Part shown: positions 2,137 through 51,975 of the stretch, piece after piece
Numbering within the stretch: position 1 is the first letter of the stretch
How the letters are laid out: each line of letters opens with the position of its first letter
Virus record (IMG/VR): IMGVR_UViG_3300046542_000168
Coordinates: 1-64,000 of that record
DNA: 64,000 nt
Source of the DNA: a virus
Reading direction: 5' to 3' (one strand)
Position numbers and translations under genes: made by a program
Notes under the pieces: generated by a model
Seen by the model: the letters and a program-made list of their open reading frames with translations, nothing else
The model's database searches: none
Told to the model about the DNA's origin: nothing

Positions 2137-2197
2137 TACCCGTATGGAAAGAGGCACTCTGCCTCTCCCGCTTCGAAGTTCTCTGGGGAGATTTGAA

Positions 2198-3076
2198 ATG
2201 GAACTGATGAAATCGCAGGCTGAGACTTACATTGATTTTCTTCGCTTTCAGCGTTATTCCCCTGAGAATACTGTTGTTGCTAAGCAGCAGGACTTGAAGA
2301 AGGTCTATGCCCTCTGCCTGAAGAAGAAGGTGAGTTCCTGGGTAGACTTCACCCCTACCCATCTGCGTGAGTTGGTAGCAAGTGAACTTAAGGCAGGCCG
2401 TAACCCTAAGTCTGTTAACCGTCTCCTAACTACTGTGCGTACTCTGTTCAAGCATTTAAAGCGTGAGGGTTATGTGCAAGTTAACCCTGCTGATGACTTC
2501 CAGGGTCCGAAGGAAGCACAGAATATTCCAACGATCCTGGCTGTAGAAGAGTGCAGCCAGATGCTCGATGCTGAAGTGGACGGCTTCCTGGGCTACCGCG
2601 ACCAAGCGATTCTTGAGCTGTTCTACTCTGCTGCTCTGCGTCTGTCCGAGCTGGTGGGCCTGACCATGGACAAGCTCAACCTGAAGGAAGGCTATGTGCG
2701 TGTTGTGGGCAAGGGTAACAAGGAGCGCTTGGTGCCTGTTGGTGGTAAGGCTAGCGAGGCCCTGGTGCTCTGGCTGCAACACCGTAGCGGGATCAAGGCC
2801 CAGGACAACAACGTGTTCCTCTCTCACCACGGTAAGGCCCTCACTCAGCGGGCTGTACAGAAGCGTGTGAAAGCCTTCGGTCAGCAGACCCTGGGCAAGG
2901 ATCTACACCCGCATATTCTGCGACACTCTTGTGCCACACATCTGTTACAATCCACTCAGAATTTGCGGGCAGTGCAAGAGATTCTGGGTCACAAGAATAT
3001 TGCTACAACTCAGATTTATACCCACCTTGACTTGCCGTATATGCAGGGTGTTCACAAGTCTCACCCGCGTGGTTAA
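2198..3076 (+). CDS. Xer-type tyrosine recombinase
   Basis: A 292-aa site-specific recombinase, close to the roughly 300 aa typical of XerC/XerD. It has an N-terminal SAM-like core-binding domain (about residues 1-95) and a catalytic domain with the expected residues: Arg in the LRLSELVGL motif, Lys in VGKGNKERL, the HxxR box (HILRH) and a late His in GHKNIATTQIY followed by the nucleophilic Tyr. I chose the ATG at 2198 because GGGGAG precedes it at 2183-2188. The ATG 54 bases upstream has no ribosome-binding site and sits on the transcription start of the TATAAT promoter. There is no arm-binding domain as in lambda Int, so dimer resolution at a dif/cer-like site is more likely than regulated prophage integration. 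Confidence 0.92.
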   Translation: MELMKSQAETYIDFLRFQRYSPENTVVAKQQDLKKVYALCLKKKVSSWVDFTPTHLRELVASELKAGRNPKSVNRLLTTVRTLFKHLKREGYVQVNPADDFQGPKEAQNIPTILAVEECSQMLDAEVDGFLGYRDQAILELFYSAALRLSELVGLTMDKLNLKEGYVRVVGKGNKERLVPVGGKASEALVLWLQHRSGIKAQDNNVFLSHHGKALTQRAVQKRVKAFGQQTLGKDLHPHILRHSCATHLLQSTQNLRAVQEILGHKNIATTQIYTHLDLPYMQGVHKSHPRG

Positions 3077-8006: not shown

Positions 8007-8534
8007 TTAATCCTCGTATTCTTTAATTACAGTTATAGCAGCAAGTAAAGCATGCTGTTGTCGCTGTGCATTGATCCAGTAAGTAAGGGTTTGCCGTATC
8101 CAGGCAATCATGGAACCTGACCCCTCGTCAATTGATGCTTGAGTCATTGCAGGGCGCACTTCGTCTGGAAATCGAATAACGAACTTGTCATAATGCGTGT
8201 GGGTAGCCTCACACATAACAAATTCTGGTACTACGGCCAAGACCTCGGCACTAAGTTCCTCTCCCAGGTAGGCACATAGCCCACTAAGAGTTGCTGAAGA
8301 TTGGACGCGGCCATTAATAGAGTCCATAATGGCCATATTAACTTCGGAATTCTTGCTGCGGAGCTGAAGATCGGCAAGCCGCTCTATCTCCGCAAACAGT
8401 TCTTCGTACCCACGGATAACAAACTTATCAGCTAGTCGGCTACTTTCAGTATCAGCCCCACGGGGGAGCCACCTTGCAGCCTCGACGGCCTTGGTGCGTA
8501 TTGCGTGGTCGATGTTCGTTACTACAGCGTTCAT
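8007..8534 (-). CDS. Unknown protein (175 aa)
   Basis: ATG with GGAAGG upstream. Mostly helical, with a negatively charged middle and an Ala/Leu-rich C-terminal helix. No recognised motif. Probably co-transcribed with the YkgJ-like gene. Confidence 0.7.
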   Translation of the reverse strand: MNAVVTNIDHAIRTKAVEAARWLPRGADTESSRLADKFVIRGYEELFAEIERLADLQLRSKNSEVNMAIMDSINGRVQSSATLSGLCAYLGEELSAEVLAVVPEFVMCEATHTHYDKFVIRFPDEVRPAMTQASIDEGSGSMIAWIRQTLTYWINAQRQQHALLAAITVIKEYED

Positions 8535-8603
8535 TCTGCCTTCCTGCCTTCCGAGATGGGCTTATTTTACAGCCCTTCCGTCACAGCGTCATCAAGTAAA
8601 TCC

Positions 8604-9341
8604 TCAGACTTCCTCAAAGTGCTCATAACATTCACAGCACATGAGCCTTAATCCAGGCCTTGCCCACACTTGTATAGGTTTCGGCTTGCACTTGCATCGA
8701 TATTTTGCCCTGGTGGGCTTAGCAGGCGCTAACTCGGCCAGGATTGGCGACAGTTTCGTCCCTTCTGCTAGGCCGAGAGTTTCAATAAGGTTCACGCCTT
8801 CGACATTACCCGTCATTGCTGCTTGCAATACCCAGTCCGCAACATGGTGTGCAGGATAACGGTCAAACCAAGTGATCTTAAATGAAGTGGCCAGCAACTT
8901 ATCCAGGGCCTGCTCAAATACACCGCCTGCAATGGCATAGTCTGCCATCTGTTCACCCGTTTCCCTGCCCCCAGGCTTGCCTGTATTACTCGGCATCAGT
9001 CCAACAGACTTCATCTTCGCTCCCCACTCTTGATTGTGGTAGCTCCGACGCCCAGGATCACCGTAGTGTGCCTGCCACTGATGCACTTGTTCATGCACCA
9101 TTGTCTGCATTACTTCTTTCAGAGGGACAATAGGGAAGTAGGCCGGGTTTAAGGCAATCTCATCTGTGAAAGTCTTATCGCCATGGCGAACGAACGATTT
9201 ATGCTTGTAGTAGCCGTATATCTTCTTGCCCCGCTGGAGGGTAATCAGACACCCAGGCAGCTCCCCGCCGAACAGTTCGTTGTTGAAGTGATCGTATGCC
9301 AGATTCATCTCGGCATAGGCTTCAGTGGTGGGGAGTGACAT
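8604..9341 (-). CDS. SprT-like zinc metalloprotease domain protein
   Basis: 245 aa. The HEQVH zinc-binding motif lies at about residues 83-87, followed by a WG..MKSVGLMPS segment typical of SprT/Spartan-like proteins. The C-terminus has a CKCKP...CCEC zinc-ribbon-like segment. Family members cut or recognise DNA-bound proteins. The ATG at 9341 is preferred to the upstream frame start because GAGG precedes it and the longer version runs through a 16-bp operator-like palindrome. Confidence 0.88.
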   Translation of the reverse strand: MSLPTTEAYAEMNLAYDHFNNELFGGELPGCLITLQRGKKIYGYYKHKSFVRHGDKTFTDEIALNPAYFPIVPLKEVMQTMVHEQVHQWQAHYGDPGRRSYHNQEWGAKMKSVGLMPSNTGKPGGRETGEQMADYAIAGGVFEQALDKLLATSFKITWFDRYPAHHVADWVLQAAMTGNVEGVNLIETLGLAEGTKLSPILAELAPAKPTRAKYRCKCKPKPIQVWARPGLRLMCCECYEHFEEV

Positions 9342-41813: not shown

Positions 41814-42180
41814 CAGGGCAAAAACAAAAAAGTGGCACACTAACCATTTAACATGAGTATTTTTACGAAACAGCGAAATGGTGGCACCGTGACCACTTGA
41901 CAGGTAGGAATTTCATGTTAAGGTCGCCAGACCTTGTATAATACTTCTTAACTCTATTAAGGATTCTATTACTTCTCTACTCTATTACTTATCTACTTTA
42001 AGTATTAACTCTAAGATATATAACTCTATTATATATTCTATTCTTTTACTCTATTATGTACTCTATTAAGAATTCTATTAAGAGTTCTATAAGTCAGAGC
42101 AGGCGCCGGTCCTCGGCCCCCATCTATAGAGTCCTCCCTGGCTGCTTAGCCACCCCACCCCCTTACCCCTGGAGTCCACT
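41814..42180. other. Divergent control region with direct repeats and AT-rich TCTATTA iterons
   Basis: Between leftward and rightward gene blocks. Two direct copies of a 22-bp element, GTGGCAC-N2-T-N-ACCA-N-TT-N-ACA, lie 49 bp apart at 41832-41853 and 41881-41902; the second contains a TTGACA. From 41950 to 42092 about nine AT-rich TCTATTA or near copies follow, spaced irregularly, giving a long stretch with few G or C. This could hold regulator sites and an origin (iterons plus an easily melted segment) or form a repeat-rich leader RNA for the rightward genes. No ORF is supported. Confidence 0.6.
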
Positions 42181-42957: not shown

Positions 42958-43019
42958 TAAAGGAAGTCTGTAAGGACGTGCCGAGCATCGAACAACAGTG
43001 AAGTGGTTTGGGGAGATGT

Positions 43020-43319
43020 ATGCCGTCGGCACAACATAGAGAGGCAGTAAGGGATTTCTCTACAGCGAACAAAGATACCAGAATGGATATCGGCGGTCAG
43101 GTAGCAGAACGGAGAGAAGCACTAGGGCTCACCTCAACGCAACTGGCAGAAGACGCACAGATCACGGAGATGAGCTTGCACATGCTAGAGCGTGGGGGTG
43201 GATTTGATGGAGGGCATACTGTGGCTTGTGCCGTCCTTAAAGCGCTAGCTAGGCTTGAAAGCGCGAACGAGGGACGGCCTGACTTCCAGTTGGCCCGGAT
43301 CAGATTCATGAGAAATTAG
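43020..43319 (+). CDS. XRE-family helix-turn-helix regulator (99 aa)
   Basis: The central region VAERREALGLTSTQLAEDAQITEMSLHMLERGG fits a Cro/C1-type helix-turn-helix. Starts with an ATG after GGGGAG; other starts at 43008 (TTG) or 43083 (ATG) are possible. Could control the promoters at 41786 or 43330. No cognate second repressor is obvious. Confidence 0.72.
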   Translation: MPSAQHREAVRDFSTANKDTRMDIGGQVAERREALGLTSTQLAEDAQITEMSLHMLERGGGFDGGHTVACAVLKALARLESANEGRPDFQLARIRFMRN

Positions 43320-44484: not shown

Positions 44485-44560
44485 AGAGGATTGGCGAAGT
44501 GGGAACGCTACGGGCTTTGATCCCGTCATTGACTAGGTTCGATCCCTAGATCCTCTTCCA
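44485..44560 (+). tRNA. tRNA-Gln (TTG)
   Basis: Acceptor AGAGGAT/ATCCTCT, T-arm CTAGG-TTCGATC-CCTAG, anticodon loop CTTTGAT with TTG, CCA encoded. First tRNA of the array. Confidence 0.93.
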
Positions 44561-44722
44561 CATTCGAAGTATCGTTGAAAACTACGGTTGTCTACGCGCA
44601 AACGCCGGACTTCGAACTCTACATACCTGGGAACTCAAGCGCCTTGGTTTGTACAATCCACTCGACCAACCGGATGGATTCAGACGCATGGGATCGTCTC
44701 TAACTTATCCCTACCTATTTCT
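44561..44722 (+). other. tRNA-array spacer without a recognisable tRNA
   Basis: 162 bases with no cloverleaf or CCA end. Contains TTGTACAATCCA (44649-44660), the same 12-mer as in the operator-like palindrome at 9355-9370. Confidence 0.5.
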
Positions 44723-44798
44723 ACCCAGGTAGCTCAACTGGCAGAGCAGCGGCCTCCAAAGCCGTTGGTTGTAGGTTCGACTCCTACCCTCGGTGCCA
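44723..44798 (+). tRNA. tRNA-Trp (CCA)
   Basis: Acceptor ACCCAGG/CCTCGGT with one mismatch, D-stem GCTC/GAGC, anticodon loop CTCCAAA, T-arm GTAGG-TTCGACT-CCTAC, CCA encoded. Confidence 0.92.
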
Positions 44799-44802
44799 CT
44801 TC

Positions 44803-44878
44803 GCAGATATAGATTAAACGGATAAATCACGCGGCTTTCAACCGCACGTTCCGAGTTCGATGCTCGGTATCTGCACCA
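44803..44878 (+). tRNA. tRNA-Glu (TTC)
   Basis: Acceptor GCAGATA/TATCTGC, D-stem GATT/AATC, anticodon loop CTTTCAA, T-arm CCGAG-TTCGATG-CTCGG, CCA encoded. Only four bases after tRNA-Trp. Confidence 0.93.
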
Positions 44879-44900
44879 TTATTCAAGTTAAGGAAGACTC

Positions 44901-45044
44901 ATGGCTCAGAAGCCTTACGATGCAACTAAAGAACACACCCCGTTCGACCGTACCCGTAAAACAGATGGGAAAGGTCGTCACCCTAATAAGGGGTTGAGTT
45001 CGAAGCACCCGGTGTCGGGCAAGAAGAACCGATACTTCGAATGA
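44901..45044 (+). CDS. Small basic protein inside the tRNA array (47 aa)
   Basis: ATG with AAGGAAG 8 bases upstream. Highly basic (many K and R), glycine-containing, no recognised domain. Basic small proteins in tRNA arrays may bind RNA, but this is speculative. Confidence 0.6.
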   Translation: MAQKPYDATKEHTPFDRTRKTDGKGRHPNKGLSSKHPVSGKKNRYFE

Positions 45045-45049
45045 TTCCA

Positions 45050-45143
45050 CCAGGGAGGCTATAGGGGTCTTATGACCGCTCCCCGCTGCTGAGGCTACTC
45101 AGTTGTCCCGATGACAGGCAACAGCGTCCTACCCGCTCCCTGG
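45050..45143 (+). ncRNA. Candidate structured RNA, non-tRNA
   Basis: An 8-bp closing stem CCAGGGAG / CTCCCTGG encloses three hairpins: GGTC/GACC (or GGGG/CCCC), CTGAG/CTCAG and TGTC/GACA. It is tRNA-sized but has no T-arm motif or CCA. Confidence 0.5.
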
Positions 45144-45180
45144 AGCGCTGAGGCACTAGAGAATAGTGCCGTTTATATTC

Positions 45181-45256
45181 GCATTCTAAGCTAACCCGGT
45201 GAAAGCGACGGATTGAAAATCCGTAGAGACTGGTTCGACTCCAGTAGATTGCACCA
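45181..45256 (+). tRNA. tRNA-Phe (GAA)
   Basis: Acceptor GCATTCT/AGATTGC with one mismatch, anticodon stem ACGGA/TCCGT, loop TTGAAAA, T-loop TTCGACT, CCA encoded. Confidence 0.9.
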
Positions 45257-45257
45257 T

Positions 45258-45331
45258 AACAATGAGAACCAGGGTACTGGTTGAGTAGCAGCCCATGGAG
45301 CCGCCAAAGGCGCTGGGCCCGGTTCATTGTT
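45258..45331 (+). ncRNA. Candidate structured RNA between tRNA-Phe and tRNA-Arg
   Basis: Closing stem AACAATGA / TCATTGTT extended by ACC/GGT encloses a GCCC...GGGC hairpin with a CGCC-AAA-GGCG tip. Begins one base after the tRNA-Phe CCA, so it may be released by tRNA processing. Confidence 0.45.
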
Positions 45332-45398
45332 GTACTGTACGCACTGGCCAGCGTACTTCGCGTTTACGGTAGAGGTCGCAAACCGCTTTATTTTCCCT

Positions 45399-45475
45399 AC
45401 TGGTATAGTTCAACTGGAAAGAGCATCCGCCTTCTAAGTGGTTAGTTGGGGGTTCGAATCCCTCTACCAGTGCCA
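45399..45475 (+). tRNA. tRNA-Arg (TCT)
   Basis: Acceptor ACTGGTA/TACCAGT, anticodon loop CTTCTAA (TCT), T-loop TTCGAAT, CCA encoded. Position 27-43 is mismatched. Confidence 0.88.
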
Positions 45476-45523
45476 GATATGCAAGAAAGTTGTAGAAAGT
45501 TCGAACTATTTTCATATTGCCTA

Positions 45524-45552
45524 TTGACAAAATAGAAAAGTGTGAGAATATT
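45524..45552 (+). promoter_or_regulatory. Promoter inside the tRNA array
   Basis: TTGACA (45524-45529), 17-bp spacer, AATATT (45547-45552). Could drive the downstream tRNA-Asp to tRNA-Met group. Confidence 0.5.
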
Positions 45553-45610
45553 CACGGACTCGAAGTTACCTTCGACTGAATTACCCCTCTTGTATGTAGT
45601 TCCCCTCTTA

Positions 45611-45686
45611 GCCTAATGATTCCTCTGGGAAGGAAGACGCACTGTCGATGCGTTCGCTGCGGTTTCGAATACCGTATTAGGCGCCA
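45611..45686 (+). tRNA. tRNA-Asp (GTC)
   Basis: Acceptor GCCTAAT/ATTAGGC, D-stem TTCC/GGAA, anticodon loop CTGTCGA, T-loop TTCGAAT, CCA followed by ATATT. Confidence 0.93.
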
Positions 45687-45691
45687 TATTT

Positions 45692-45769
45692 GCCCTTGTA
45701 GCTCTTAACTGGCAGAGCAGCCGCCTTGTAAGCGGACGGTTGGGAGTTCGAATCTCTCCTGGGGCACCA
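45692..45769 (+). tRNA. tRNA-Thr (TGT)
   Basis: D-stem GCTC/GAGC, anticodon stem GCCGC/GCGGA with loop CTTGTAA, T-arm GGGAG-TTCGAAT-CTCTC, CCA encoded. Acceptor has one mismatch. Confidence 0.9.
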
Positions 45770-45776
45770 TATTCTT

Positions 45777-45852
45777 TCCGGTATAGCTCAGTTGGTAGAG
45801 CAGCGGCCCGATAAGCCGTTTGTCACTAGTTCAAGTCTAGTTACCGGGACCA
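45777..45852 (+). tRNA. tRNA-Ile (GAT) with C33
   Basis: Acceptor TCCGGTA/TACCGGG, D-stem GCTC/GAGC, loop CCGATAA, T-loop TTCAAGT, CCA encoded. Position 33 is C where nearly all tRNAs have U. Confidence 0.88.
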
Positions 45853-45857
45853 TCTAT

Positions 45858-45931
45858 GGGCTGTAAGAATTACGACAGTTCGCCTGCCTTGCACGCAGGA
45901 AGCCAGGGTTTGACTCCCTGACGGTCCACCA
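45858..45931 (+). tRNA. tRNA-Ala (TGC)
   Basis: Anticodon stem CCTGC/GCAGG with loop CTTGCAC, T-arm CAGGG-TTTGACT-CCCTG (U at 56), CCA encoded. D-stem is short. Confidence 0.85.
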
Positions 45932-45999
45932 TTACAAATGCAGAGACTTACGGCTTATGTCGTTACAAGTCAAACCGGGGATATGCACCCCTTTACAAT

Positions 46000-46081
46000 A
46001 GCGAGAGAGTTAAGACTGTCTGGTGATGTCGCCCGGCTCATAACCGGCTGCTTTGTGGTTCGATTCCACCTCTCGCCACCA
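46000..46081 (+). tRNA. tRNA-Met (CAT), unusual
   Basis: Anticodon loop CTCATAA, T-arm GTGG-TTCGATT-CCAC, CCA encoded and followed by TATTT. The acceptor (AGCGAGA/TCTCGCC) has an A1-C72 mismatch, and the D-arm is set further from the acceptor than usual. An absent 1-72 pair is an initiator-like trait, but the three G-C pairs of the initiator anticodon stem are incomplete. Elongator, initiator or tRNA-Ile2 cannot be separated here. Confidence 0.75.
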
Positions 46082-46085
46082 TATT

Positions 46086-46180
46086 TGAAGAGAGAACCTG
46101 GGTTCAAGTCCCTTGTCTCGGAAGGCCCGCCTGTATAACAGGGCTGATAGCTTAGTGGATTAAAGCGCTCTTCATCTCAC
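46086..46180 (+). pseudogene. tRNA relics in permuted order (3' half then 5' half)
   Basis: A 3'-half-like piece (TGAAGAG, then a T-arm-like CTGGG-TTCAAGT-CCC) lies upstream of a 5'-half-like piece (GGGCTGA, TA, D-arm GCTT/AAGC with GG in the loop, CTCTTCA). The TGAAGAG and CTCTTCA segments are fully complementary, as for the two sides of an anticodon stem. Either a permuted tRNA gene or two decayed neighbours. Confidence 0.45.
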
Positions 46181-46245
46181 ACACTGGGTTGCTCCCCATG
46201 TGAACACTCGCCACAGAGTGTATAAATAAGTGTGGCACGATCAAT

Positions 46246-46322
46246 TGGACATAAGCTAACTAGGCGGAAGCGGGTGGCTGTTAACCACCAGATGCTAGGT
46301 TCGAATCCTAGATGTCCAGCCA
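46246..46322 (+). tRNA. tRNA-Asn (GTT)
   Basis: Perfect acceptor TGGACAT/ATGTCCA, anticodon stem GGTGG/CCACC with loop CTGTTAA, T-arm CTAGG-TTCGAAT-CCTAG, discriminator G and CCA encoded. Confidence 0.93.
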
Positions 46323-46438
46323 ACTTTGCGACGTGAGGTTTTATGCCCACGATCCTTCCAGGGCTTACCTGGGAGAGATGAGAGTCGCGCATTAAGCTGT
46401 CTGCTAGGCCCGGACGTTAAATGGGCGACAAGATCAAT

Positions 46439-46514
46439 ACCCCGATGGCTGATCGTCTTAGGCAATCGCCTGCAAAGCGATATCAGGCTGGTTAGATTCC
46501 AGCTCGGGGTTCCA
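46439..46514 (+). tRNA. tRNA-Cys (GCA)
   Basis: Perfect acceptor ACCCCGA/TCGGGGT, anticodon stem ATCGC/GCGAT with loop CTGCAAA, CCA encoded. T-loop is TTAGATT, with A at 56 in place of C. Confidence 0.9.
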
Positions 46515-46522
46515 GTTATAAA

Positions 46523-46608
46523 GGTCGTTGTAGAGTCAGATGGCTACTGACAGGGCGCTGTAAACGCCCCGCTTCTGCTAGAGGTTCAATTCCATCCTTC
46601 GACCACCA
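46523..46608 (+). tRNA. tRNA-Tyr (GTA)
   Basis: Anticodon stem GGGCG/CGCCC with loop CTGTAAA, extended variable region, T-loop TTCAATT, CCA encoded. Two mismatches at the base of the acceptor. Confidence 0.82.
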
Positions 46609-46694
46609 ATTTGCCGTATAGGTGCCATACCCGAAAGCATTCGTGCAGTGAGGGCAGGTTATCGTCCCCTTCCCAGGGCGGCAGACGCGAGAAT

Positions 46695-46771
46695 GAGACG
46701 TTGGCCGACCGGCGCTAGGCAACAGGCTTTTAACCTGTATTAATCTGGTTCGATTCCAGAGCGTTTCACCA
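46695..46771 (+). tRNA. tRNA-Lys (TTT)
   Basis: Anticodon stem ACAGG/CCTGT with loop CTTTTAA, T-arm TCTGG-TTCGATT-CCAGA, CCA encoded. Confidence 0.92.
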
Positions 46772-46776
46772 ACAAT

Positions 46777-46846
46777 GGAGGGTCCGCTGGGACGGGACTA
46801 CTGAAGAAGTAGAGAGTGTGGTTAGAATCCACTACCCTTCGCCTTA
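46777..46846 (+). pseudogene. tRNA-like sequence lacking CCA
   Basis: Acceptor GGAGGGT/ACCCTTC and T-arm-like GTGG-TTAGAAT-CCAC with A at 56; the anticodon arm (CTAC/GTAG) gives no loop with U33, and the 3' end is GCCT. Probably a decayed tRNA. Confidence 0.55.
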
Positions 46847-46849
46847 TAT

Positions 46850-46937
46850 AGTAGATTGACCGAGAGGCCGATGGTAGGGGATTGCTAATCCCTACGGTGT
46901 AACAGCCGCACAGGTTCGAATCCTGTATCTACTGCCA
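46850..46937 (+). tRNA. tRNA-Ser (GCT)
   Basis: Perfect acceptor AGTAGAT/ATCTACT, anticodon loop TTGCTAA, long variable arm (CGGTG...CCG), CCA encoded. Confidence 0.93.
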
Positions 46938-46954
46938 TATTCCAGGCAAACAAA

Positions 46955-46975
46955 AGCCGCCTTAGTAGGGCGGCT
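46955..46975 (+). terminator. Hairpin/terminator inside the tRNA array
   Basis: AGCCGCC / GGCGGCT stem of 7 bp with A-rich upstream and CTTG downstream. Weak T-tract, so possibly a leaky terminator. Confidence 0.5.
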
Positions 46976-47042
46976 CTTGACAACGAACTCTACCGTTCAT
47001 TGTAGGTGGGATGCACTGGCGTACTCCGAGGGGAATCCTATC

Positions 47043-47348
47043 ATGTGGACGAATGGCCGACAAGGCACCGGGTACGCGAAACTAACGCTCCTAGCCACCT
47101 CCAGGCTCGACTGTCACGTTTTACGATATATGCCTGGGGATAGCATTCCATCTCACACAGATAAGCTTGTGGACGGCAGGAAGCACTTCAGGATGAACAT
47201 CCGGCTAGCCGGTGAAGACACTTTCAAGTGCTGCAAGGTATTGTTTAGATTCTGGCGGGTTACGATCTTCCGACCGGACCTCTATGAGCACTCAGTACCG
47301 GCAGTAAAGAGAAAACGATACATGCTCAGCATCGGCTGGGTAATATGA
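47043..47348 (+). CDS. Possible Fe(II)/2-oxoglutarate dioxygenase-like protein (101 aa)
   Basis: Start at 47043 after GAGGGG. HVLRYMPGDSIPSHTD, then RMNI-L, then FRPDLYEHSV and KRKRYMLSIGW: an HxD...H...R order as in the double-stranded beta-helix dioxygenases (His and Asp for iron, late His for iron, Arg for 2-oxoglutarate). It is short (101 aa), so the fold would be minimal or degraded. Its place in the tRNA array suggests, but does not show, RNA modification. Confidence 0.5.
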   Translation: MWTNGRQGTGYAKLTLLATSRLDCHVLRYMPGDSIPSHTDKLVDGRKHFRMNIRLAGEDTFKCCKVLFRFWRVTIFRPDLYEHSVPAVKRKRYMLSIGWVI

Positions 47349-47353
47349 TACAA

Positions 47354-47438
<85 letters not shown>

Positions 47439-47490
47439 TTTACAACGATTGAAGGTTGAGCCTATCGCTCCCTCTCGTTACAACGAATAC

Positions 47491-47578
47491 GGCGTGTAGG
47501 CTCCATGGGGAGATGCGGTCTTGAAAACCGTCCCATTGCAGAGATGTGGTGAGGGTTCGATTCCTTTATGCGCCTCCA
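47491..47578 (+). tRNA. tRNA-Ser (TGA)
   Basis: Acceptor GGCGTGT/ATGCGCC, anticodon stem GCGGT/ACCGT with loop CTTGAAA, long variable arm, CCA encoded. Confidence 0.9.
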
Positions 47579-47680
47579 ACTTAACGCACGAGACTGGAGG
47601 CTGAAATGCCCGTGCGATCCGGCCGATACGGCTCCCAGCCTTGAGCGGGTATGAAAGGATAATGCCTGTAACGCACAAAC

Positions 47681-47704
47681 AAAAACACCGCCTTTCGGCG
47701 GTGC
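47681..47704 (-). terminator. Terminator of mvaT (leftward)
   Basis: CACCGCC / GGCGGTG with a 4-base loop; on the minus strand it is followed by TTTTTGTTT. 20 bases downstream of the mvaT stop. Confidence 0.85.
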
Positions 47705-47723
47705 TCAGGAACGCAAGTGAAGA

Positions 47724-48113
47724 TCAGCCCAGGATAGTTACCCAGCTCTCTACGGACTCATTACCCCACTTCGCTTTCCACTCTTTCAGAGTCTTGTGGT
47801 TGCCACCTTTCGTCTCGATGACTTCGCCGTTGTGCGGGTTTTTGTACTGCTTAACGTGACGCTGACGACGAGTAACGGAAGAGGATTTATCAGAAGCCTG
47901 CTTCGAAGACTTACCGCCGTGGCGACCGTCTGGGTCCATAATACCCAGGATGTCTTTCAACGACTTGCTATATTCGCCCATCAAGCTACGCAGCTTACCT
48001 TCGAATTCCAGTTCTTCTTGCAATTTACCGTCCGACTGGAGGGTAGCCATGCGGGCCTGGAGTTCTTTAATTGCGGCTTCTGTAGCGCGGTATTCAGCAA
48101 TAACTGACGACAT
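47724..48113 (-). CDS. mvaT: MvaT-family H-NS-type xenogeneic silencer
   Basis: 129 aa, close to P. aeruginosa MvaT (124 aa). N-terminal coiled coil for dimer and oligomer formation (EYRATEAAIKELQ ... ELEFEGKLRSLMGEYSKSL), a Ser/Lys/Arg linker, and the C-terminal AT-rich-DNA binding domain QYKNPHNGEVIETKGGN with HKTLKEWKAKWG. MvaT proteins coat AT-rich foreign DNA in Pseudomonas and repress it. The ATG at 48113 follows GGGGAA; the ATG 15 bases upstream has no such signal. It has its own promoter and terminator and runs opposite to the tRNAs. Confidence 0.95.
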   Translation of the reverse strand: MSSVIAEYRATEAAIKELQARMATLQSDGKLQEELEFEGKLRSLMGEYSKSLKDILGIMDPDGRHGGKSSKQASDKSSSVTRRQRHVKQYKNPHNGEVIETKGGNHKTLKEWKAKWGNESVESWVTILG

Positions 48114-48165
48114 ATTTGCGTTCCCCATGGGATGTCTGTGTGATGTGTCAGAGGATATACACGGC

Positions 48166-48194
48166 TTATTATTATGTAAAGCCCTTAGTGTAAA
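48166..48194 (-). promoter_or_regulatory. Promoter for mvaT
   Basis: On the minus strand: -35 TTTACA (plus 48189-48194), 17-bp spacer, -10 TAATAA (plus 48166-48171). The region is AT-rich, so MvaT could autoregulate here. Confidence 0.65.
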
Positions 48195-48207
48195 AGTTTT
48201 TTAAAAT

Positions 48208-48284
48208 CTCGCTGTAGCTCAGATCGGTAGAGCGCCTGCTTTGGGAGCAGGAGGCCGGGGGTTCGATGCCCTCCAGCGTGACCA
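48208..48284 (+). tRNA. tRNA-Pro (TGG)
   Basis: D-stem GCTC/GAGC, anticodon stem CCTGC/GCAGG with loop TTTGGGA, T-arm GGGGG-TTCGATG-CCCTC, CCA encoded and followed by TATT. Acceptor has one mismatch. Confidence 0.9.
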
Positions 48285-48299
48285 TATTAAGATGTAGTC

Positions 48300-48374
48300 G
48301 TGGGGCCGTGCTGCCTGGATGTAGCCATCAGGTTGTGACCCTGTTGTCGGAGTTCGAATCTCCACCTCACCCCA
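48300..48374 (+). tRNA. tRNA-His (GTG)
   Basis: Anticodon arm CAGG-TTGTGAC-CCTG, T-arm GGAG-TTCGAAT-CTCC, C at the discriminator opposite a 5' G as in bacterial tRNA-His, CCA encoded. Confidence 0.85.
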
Positions 48375-48379
48375 ATTTA

Positions 48380-48456
48380 GCGTGCTTCGTATAGCCAGGT
48401 TATTACCTCCGGCTTCCACCCGGATGACAACAGTTCGAATCTGTTAGCCCGCACCA
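48380..48456 (+). tRNA. tRNA-Gly (TCC)
   Basis: Acceptor GCGTGCT/AGCCCGC with one mismatch, anticodon stem TCCGG/CCGGA with loop CTTCCAC, T-loop TTCGAAT, CCA encoded. Confidence 0.9.
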
Positions 48457-48460
48457 ATTC

Positions 48461-48534
48461 GCTCGATTAGCTCAATGGGAGAGCAGAGCCCTTACAAGGC
48501 TTTTACGGTGGTTCGATTCCATCATTGAGCACCA
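48461..48534 (+). tRNA. tRNA-Val (TAC)
   Basis: Acceptor GCTCGAT/ATTGAGC, D-stem GCTC/GAGC, anticodon stem GAGCC/GGCTT with loop CTTACAA, T-loop TTCGATT, CCA then TATT. Last tRNA of the array. Confidence 0.93.
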
Positions 48535-50469: not shown

Positions 50470-51975
50470 ATGGCCAATCCTCCATTTCAGCAGAAGAAGG
50501 AGCTGATTGGCCCCGCCTCAGCAAAGCAAGTAATGATGTTACAAGCCGCTGCATCTACCGCCGTTATCGGTGGAGCTGCTGGCTCTGGTAAAAGTCACAT
50601 TGCCCTTCTATTCCCTCTCAAGTACAAAGATGACCCCTACTTCCGTGGCGTTATCTTCCGTAAGACTACAGGCGAACTTCAAGACCTGTGGGACCGTGCT
50701 TGCGAGATGTATCCGAAGCTCTACCCGAAAGATGATCGCGGTAGAAGCCCCGTCAAGATCCACCAGCAGAAGATGCGTATTACCTTCCCTTCTGGTGCGA
50801 CTGTTTTATTCTCTTACCTCGATCACGAGAAAGATAAATACAAGCATCAGGGTAAGGAATACACCTTCATTCTTTTCGATGAAGCAACGCACTTCTCGCA
50901 AACTCAAATTGAATACCTACGTGGTCGTCTGCGTAGTTCCCGCTCTGAAAATCCAATTCAGATGATCCTCACGGCAAACCCGGACCCCGACTCAATTTTA
51001 TTTAACTGGGTTGAATGGTACTTGCACGAAGACGGGCTGCCTAATCTTGATAAAGATGGCGTTGTTCGTTACTACGTGATGGAAGGCGGTGAATACATCT
51101 GGGCAGACACTCGTGAGGAACTAGAGGCCATTCACGGCACCGGTCATGAAAGTGGTATCCAGTCGTTCACGTTCATCTCTGCAACGTGTTATGACAATCC
51201 CGTGTTGCTCTCCAACGACCCTTCATATCCGAGTCGGCTTAAAGCGAACAACGAAGTGGACGTGCAGCGGTTGCTATATGGTAACTGGAAAGTACGCCCT
51301 TCTGCTGCCGGGATTATGAAGCGTGAATGGTTCCACGAACTAGAGCAAGAGCCCGCCTGGACAGAGATTATCAAGTCGGTACGTGCGTTTGATTTCGCAG
51401 GTACGTTAAAGAGTGATTCAAACCCCAGCCCCGATTACACCGCTTGCGTGAAGATGTCACGACTCAAGAGCAGTACTTACCACATTCATGAAGTTCGCCG
51501 TACACGTATTCGTTACGGAGACTGGGTGAAGTGGATTCTACACTGCTGTGTCGATGATGGCCCGAAAGTCGATGTAATTATCCCTATCGACCCTAACCCT
51601 GCTGCCGCTGCTGCATCAATGATGCTGGCACGAACTCTCAGCGAACATGGGTTGTATGTTCGAAGGTTTAAAGCCTCCGGCAAAAAGATTGATCGTGCAA
51701 GGCCATTCGCCTCGATGCTGCTTAATGGTGGCGTCAGTATCTCTAAAGACTGTGCAGTCGATGAAGAGAACAAAATCAATTACGACAACACTTTCTATTT
51801 CAAAGAGTGCGAAGCATTCGATGGTGAAAAGAGGAAAGGCGAGAACGGTCACGACGATATGGTCGATGCCACTTCCGATGCCTTTATGGCCCTCGCTCAG
51901 AAAGCTGTTATCCCCAACGTTTCTCACGGATTGAAGCAATTCAATACCTCTTTCAGTAACCCATTCTCACGATAG
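50470..51975 (+). CDS. Terminase large subunit
   Basis: 501 aa. ATPase: Walker A GGAAGSGKS (34-42), Walker B FILFDEATH. Nuclease: FDFAGTL..SNPSPDYTACVK and C-terminal DMVDATSDAFMAL with the acidic metal ligands. It cuts and pumps phage DNA into proheads. The class resembles T4-like or P22/Sf6-type enzymes; mode of packaging cannot be read from the sequence. Confidence 0.95.
   Translation: MANPPFQQKKELIGPASAKQVMMLQAAASTAVIGGAAGSGKSHIALLFPLKYKDDPYFRGVIFRKTTGELQDLWDRACEMYPKLYPKDDRGRSPVKIHQQKMRITFPSGATVLFSYLDHEKDKYKHQGKEYTFILFDEATHFSQTQIEYLRGRLRSSRSENPIQMILTANPDPDSILFNWVEWYLHEDGLPNLDKDGVVRYYVMEGGEYIWADTREELEAIHGTGHESGIQSFTFISATCYDNPVLLSNDPSYPSRLKANNEVDVQRLLYGNWKVRPSAAGIMKREWFHELEQEPAWTEIIKSVRAFDFAGTLKSDSNPSPDYTACVKMSRLKSSTYHIHEVRRTRIRYGDWVKWILHCCVDDGPKVDVIIPIDPNPAAAAASMMLARTLSEHGLYVRRFKASGKKIDRARPFASMLLNGGVSISKDCAVDEENKINYDNTFYFKECEAFDGEKRKGENGHDDMVDATSDAFMALAQKAVIPNVSHGLKQFNTSFSNPFSR

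Follow-up and report, generated by a model that had tools for sequence, protein, structure and literature searches.

A core-type MvaT silencer gene in the tRNA array of a probable Pseudomonas phage with plasmid-type maintenance genes

Why should a phage carry, inside an array of its own tRNA genes, an intact gene for a silencer of the host's MvaT family? The question is raised by a window of 64,000 nucleotides (the whole stretch of DNA that was analysed), which is part of a 107,407-base virus record, here G000. A second genome in IMG/VR, G001 (105,402 bases), has the same layout of two mvaT genes, mvaT1 inside the window and mvaT2 beyond it. Because G001 has the two ends of the G000 contig side by side and colinear, both records can be read as near-complete permuted maps. 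The layout was common to these two near-complete genomes only; a third terminase relative (L016) is 8.6 kb long, and its left end stops short of the mvaT position. The features around mvaT1 are as follows.

44485-48534, forward strand: tRNA array, 18 tRNAs by ARAGORN, with mvaT1 inside in the opposite orientation
47683-47706, reverse strand: intrinsic terminator of mvaT1, GCACCGCC-GAAA-GGCGGTG-TTTTTG, found by pattern scan
47724-48113, reverse strand: mvaT1, an ORF of 129 amino acids, full-length MvaT-family silencer gene
MvaT1 residues ~1-62: N-terminal helical oligomerisation region, followed by a linker
MvaT1 residues ~82-129: C-terminal AT-pincer DNA-binding domain
48122-48126, reverse strand: Shine-Dalgarno sequence GGGGA, 8 nt before the ATG at 48113, with AAGGA in the same place in G001
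48152-48180, reverse strand: sigma70-like promoter of mvaT1, TTTACA-17-TATCCT, found by pattern scan
50470-51975, forward strand: terminase large subunit (phrog_979, 538 bits), start of the virion module

Over residues 3-129, MvaT1 matched NCBI's strict MvaT model, NF041860, at 196.4 bits (E 1.5e-58; cut-off 180 bits) and the MvaT/MvaU equivalog model NF041859 at 161.7 bits against a cut-off of 75. With the Pfam model MvaT_DBD, whose cut-off is 27 bits, it scored 77.3. Its N-terminal half aligned to the oligomerisation structures 5b52 and 8h8h, and its C-terminal half to the solved MvaT domain 2mxe. These matches rule out a chance ORF and bear out the preliminary description of this DNA, which had read the gene as a full-length MvaT. 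That description had also given the protein an AT-hook-like domain, a motif that MvaT does not have; DNA binding by MvaT is instead through an AT-pincer (PMC4466236). The residues of the AT-pincer and its lysine network (R80, K83, N100, K105 and K108) are all conserved in MvaT1, and mutating any of them in P. aeruginosa MvaT abolishes cupA repression (PMC4466236). The alignment also retains the arginine and the glutamate of the R8-E37 oligomer contact of TurB, a salt bridge in the terminal dimer of that protein (PMC13141940). A reading of mvaT1 as a truncated, dominant-negative silencer was rejected: antagonists of MvaT and H-NS are defined either by having no DNA-binding domain or as unrelated inhibitors, and the DNA-binding domain of MvaT1 is complete.

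The gene runs against the tRNAs and has a promoter and a terminator of its own, as had been noticed at the outset, and both signals are conserved in G001. There the promoter reads TTTACA-17-TATTCT, and a second TTTACA found upstream of the G000 promoter is TTGACA; the terminator core, hairpin and T-run, is identical. The upstream regions of the two genes align with a score of 66, whereas shuffled sequences reached 22 at most. Inheritance of the promoter from a host gene was rejected, as the mvaT promoters of hosts and plasmids do not resemble it. The ATG at 48113 is the likely start codon: the Shine-Dalgarno sequence 8 nt upstream of it is conserved, unlike the other candidate start, ATG 48128. 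In both genomes mvaT1 lies between tRNA-Ser(TGA) and tRNA-Pro(TGG) (locus L001 in G001), and host contamination or misassembly was rejected because G001, an independent contig, has gene, promoter and terminator at this same point of its array. The array itself may exceed 18 tRNAs, given a tRNA-His-like sequence (anticodon GTG) seen by eye between tRNA-Pro and tRNA-Gly at 48297-48373, where ARAGORN made no call. It also holds a gene for a small protein at 46977-47348 (phrog_13746, 88 bits; weakly 2OG-Fe(II) oxygenase-like), of which G001 has a counterpart (L001 8760-9065).

A phylogeny against chromosomal MvaT and MvaU, which the preliminary description had proposed as a check, was run with 62 proteins. 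The mvaT1 products of G000 and G001 pair up (91/90) inside the core MvaT clade, together with chromosomal and plasmid copies, a placement with split supports of 99/99 and 100/99. Nearly all other viral MvaTs (30 of 31) fall on the opposite side of the split, with MvaU and the accessory MvaTs (100/99). Descent of mvaT1 from prophage MvaTs is thus unsupported by the tree, and the separation implies that mvaT1 was acquired separately from them. Other viral carriers are few among the 50,697 phage records searched by tblastn, where MvaT was found in two unannotated faecal contigs only; a scan of IMG/VR with the family alignment found it in at least 43 contigs, and all these sets are lower bounds from pattern-limited searches. 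Apart from G001, each of the 36 other MvaT-bearing viral contigs examined has a single copy; 28 of them encode a tyrosine recombinase, none encodes RepL, and none has tRNAs within the flanks covered. Scans of IMG/VR for further MvaT2 and RepL relatives returned none, using exact short patterns that missed the known G001 copies too. About ten MvaT-family matches in the genome of Pseudomonas sp. LS-2 (G007, L022) illustrate the number of accessory copies that one host may contain.

The preliminary description had taken the gene to identify the host as Pseudomonas. By itself MvaT points only to Pseudomonadales or thereabouts, as plasmids of Halomonas, Marinobacter and Azotobacter carry it as well, but a Pseudomonas host is well supported overall, by the 65-70% identity of MvaT1 to chromosomal Pseudomonas MvaT, by the phage relatives and by Pseudomonas-phage tRNAs. 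The virion module is colinear with that of Pseudomonas phage phiPMW (Plaisancevirus; terminase 42.5%, 36 of 182 called ORFs matched), which likewise has tRNAs upstream, and the organisation around the terminase is the same in vB_PpS_SYP; the hosts of these phages are P. putida and P. plecoglossicida. At ~42% terminase identity, both differ from G000 in that MvaT, RepL, ParA and a tyrosine recombinase were not found in them, the two nearest cultured phages checked.

What sets G000 and G001 apart from these relatives lies largely beyond the window (coordinates below are those of the whole record).

2144-3076, forward strand: XerC/XerD-like tyrosine recombinase (Phage_integrase 151.7 bits; XerC 279.7 bits, below the equivalog cut-off of 335)
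89178-89675: RepL-type plasmid replication initiator (39.5 bits, cut-off 20.3)
89779-90372: small candidate ribbon-helix-helix protein (weak match, E 0.03)
90763-91542: ParA-family partition ATPase, near mvaT2
93112-93504, reverse strand: mvaT2, MvaT family, 35% identical to MvaT1, outside the window

G000 therefore combines phage virion genes (terminase, tail module) with plasmid replication and partition genes (RepL, ParA). RepL, ParA, the ribbon-helix-helix candidate and the recombinase are present in both genomes, as are sequence-degenerate arrays with 4-nt periodicity on both sides of parA, at 90.35-90.9 kb and 91.5-92.4 kb in G000 (z 6-15). In G001 the arrays also flank parA (L015 3300-3700 and 4450-5400), their phase conserved and their sequence different; elsewhere in the scanned parts of the two genomes there was only a weaker periodic patch, at 93.7-93.9 kb in G000. 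These arrays resemble a tetramer-box centromere, the target of ribbon-helix-helix proteins such as ParG (PMC7308502), and may be the centromere of a partition system of that type. Matches to RepL among phage records include Sodalis phiSG1 and phages annotated with plasmid replication proteins. The XerC-like recombinase is a candidate resolvase or integrase of an episomal or prophage form; that it could be an integrase argues against reading the phage as an episome. A match to a HicA-type toxin at 82028-82279 (L012 18028-18279; Pfam 32.1 bits, cut-off 27) is a possible addiction module, which would fit plasmid maintenance.

The carried state was also looked for directly. The terminase had no match in 400 Pseudomonas genomes, which were searched for lysogens without a positive control; in 72,556 plasmids its best match, at 32.8%, was not a close one. 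No clear CI-type repressor was identified, the only candidate being a weak HTH at 43008-43319. The phage also has a lytic metabolism gene set, typical of its virulent relatives.

The second gene, mvaT2, lies ~45 kb from mvaT1 in G000 and ~44 kb in G001. The MvaT2 proteins score 92.3 (G000) and 101.8 bits (G001) against NF041859 (cut-off 75), and the G000 copy exceeds the Pfam MvaT_DBD cut-off; both are below the strict MvaT model. With 55% identity to each other, the MvaT2 proteins make up a clade of their own in the tree, one that is very divergent. DNA binding by MvaT2 is uncertain, because the G000 protein, which keeps R80 and N100, has lost lysines (K97S, K102T, K105N), and in G001 R80 is replaced by proline. 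Neither MvaT1 nor MvaT2 matched a defence system. Together, the second MvaT and the RepL/ParA module favour reading the locus as a stealth silencer of the plasmid kind rather than as a means of counter-silencing during lytic growth; the suggested functional link between mvaT1 and the partition module, 45 kb apart, is one of co-occurrence.

Where such a silencer would act can be predicted from the preference of MvaT for flexible DNA rich in TpA steps, with A-tracts penalised (PMC4466236). Three stretches of the window stand out.

1066-1760: second TpA-dense stretch, 19 TpA per 100 bp, upstream of the recombinase gene; dense also in G001 (L137 7956-8670)
41891-42135: ACTCTATTA-type array where TpA density is highest in the phage genome (24 per 100 bp; mean 5.7), lying where leftward genes give way to rightward ones
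48114-48213: AT-rich region upstream of mvaT1, 38% GC, among the lowest 0.7% of 100-bp windows; 44% GC in G001

With its equivalent in G001 also reaching 23 TpA per 100 bp (L139 8426-8665), the array at 41891-42135 is the predicted strongest MvaT target, given the measured TpA preference (PMC4466236). The very AT-rich part at 41930-42085 (~20% GC) is kept in G001 (L139 ~8440-8620) and adjoins a promoter-like site, TTGACA...TTAAGGT; an origin for lytic replication or a leader is another possible role for it. A further TpA-dense stretch lies upstream of mvaT2 (93751-93915 in G000), and the AT-rich DNA upstream of mvaT1 is a candidate target that would allow autoregulation.

The explanation that we favour, and regard as moderately probable, is that a phage-plasmid carries its own MvaT silencer, which acts on the AT- and TpA-rich control DNA of the phage and tops up the host MvaT pool, a stealth function of the type described for the plasmid protein Pmr. 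The phage-plasmid would have acquired mvaT1 from the chromosomal or plasmid MvaT pool of Pseudomonas and kept it under its own sigma70-like promoter. In a lysogen-like, episomal carrier state, MvaT1, alone or in filaments mixed with host MvaT and MvaU, would coat the AT- and TpA-rich control DNA, above all at 41.9-42.1 kb, and so keep lytic promoters quiet, assisted by MvaT2, which is encoded beside the partition locus. At the same time it would replace host MvaT otherwise titrated by 107 kb of 50%-GC DNA, as Pmr does for pCAR1. DNA binding, mixed filaments and silencing by the phage MvaTs, and the episomal state itself, are what we infer from the complete, conserved MvaT1 and the module that accompanies it. 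Among the three functions offered by the preliminary description, action on the AT-rich control region of the phage is the one that fits best. As a tentative extension, general silencing might fall to MvaT1 and a specialised task to its paralogue MvaT2, acting with the RepL/ParA locus and the 4-nt-periodic arrays, the two forming a dedicated two-protein chromatin set. If true, silencing would be linked to episome partition, and an unrelated protein family would have arrived convergently at the arrangement seen in mycobacteriophages, where Lsr2 lies beside ParAB.

Among the alternatives, one directed at the host survives best, although we consider it unlikely: extra MvaT made during infection would repress the AT-rich islands of the host, among them defence systems and prophages, whether resident or competing. 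An intact silencer of chromosomal type should join host filaments, its sigma70-like promoter is usable by host polymerase early in infection, and the H-NS of phage EPV1 offers a precedent, itself a hypothesis (PMC3097231). However, host MvaT is already abundant, so that added copies would matter little unless very highly expressed, and the occurrence of two copies beside plasmid maintenance functions, with none in the nearest cultured relatives, suggests a role in carriage.

A passenger gene, or moron, gained from a host within a gene-rich tRNA cargo region and of little effect on the phage, is improbable. Such arrays are hot spots for cargo, a promoter and terminator of its own are typical of morons, and mvaT1 diverges faster than the terminase between the two genomes (dN 0.25 against 0.027). 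Nonetheless, position, promoter and terminator are conserved in two phages whose mvaT1 genes differ by 30% (69% identical), the dN/dS ratio of ~0.2 (dS 1.23) indicates that the gene is under purifying selection, and a second paralogue has been retained in both. Least probable, and the worst fit among the functions first offered, is a counter-silencer whose mixed or altered filaments loosen host silencing of incoming AT-rich phage DNA: although a 50%-GC phage genome should be a target of host MvaT, virulent phages do block MvaT (LUZ24 Mip, PMC4635203) and the altered DNA-binding domain of MvaT2 could poison filaments, MvaT1 is intact, with every key DNA-binding residue, unlike the antagonists known so far, which are either truncated or unrelated (PMC4635203).

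Mobile xenogeneic silencers are known already; what is new here is the combination of a tRNA array that houses an MvaT of the core type with a divergent second MvaT next to RepL and ParA. A 2020 review of such silencers lists phage H-NS and Lsr2 and no phage MvaT (PMC7074111), and our targeted literature searches found no report of a phage-borne MvaT. Phage MvaT proteins are held in PHROG 34034, which is labelled as of unknown function and should be annotated as MvaT-family silencers. These Pseudomonas prophage proteins share with MvaT1 the family and the setting on viral contigs, mostly with an integrase, but of those placed in the tree all except one fall with MvaU and the accessory MvaTs, and they occur in single copy, with no RepL and no nearby tRNAs. 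The silencer's part in the switch between lytic growth and carriage is open to test, by deleting the gene and by comparison with those relatives that lack the module.

Other phages offer partial parallels. LUZ24 Mip, T7 gp5.5 and T4 Arn are phage proteins that act in the MvaT/H-NS system, but as inhibitors and not as MvaT homologues. Phage EPV1 likewise carries a full-length silencer of host type (PMC3097231); it is H-NS rather than MvaT, the host is Candidatus Accumulibacter, and its role in repressing defence is hypothetical. The Lsr2-type silencers of actinobacteriophages, with CgpS as a precedent (PMC7074111), are also phage-encoded and lie near ParA/ParB or are duplicated: Lsr2 is enriched in temperate actinobacteriophages and has a GC dip upstream; cluster A phages encode it next to parAB, and cluster J phages have it twice (PMC8612146). 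Their protein family is unrelated to MvaT and their hosts belong to another bacterial phylum, so that only the arrangement is similar. The two MvaTs, on a large phage that has plasmid maintenance genes, offer a testable case for independent recruitment of local silencer families by phage-plasmids of different phyla, each to quiet a large AT-rich episome. Closest to MvaT1 in kind are Pmr of pCAR1 and the MvaT of pQBR57, which are also full-length, mobile-element MvaTs of the core subtype, and Pmr has a documented stealth effect and forms hetero-oligomers with host TurA and TurB (PMC7273181, PMC13141940). They are 54-60% identical to MvaT1 and differ from it in residing on plasmids, with one match per record.
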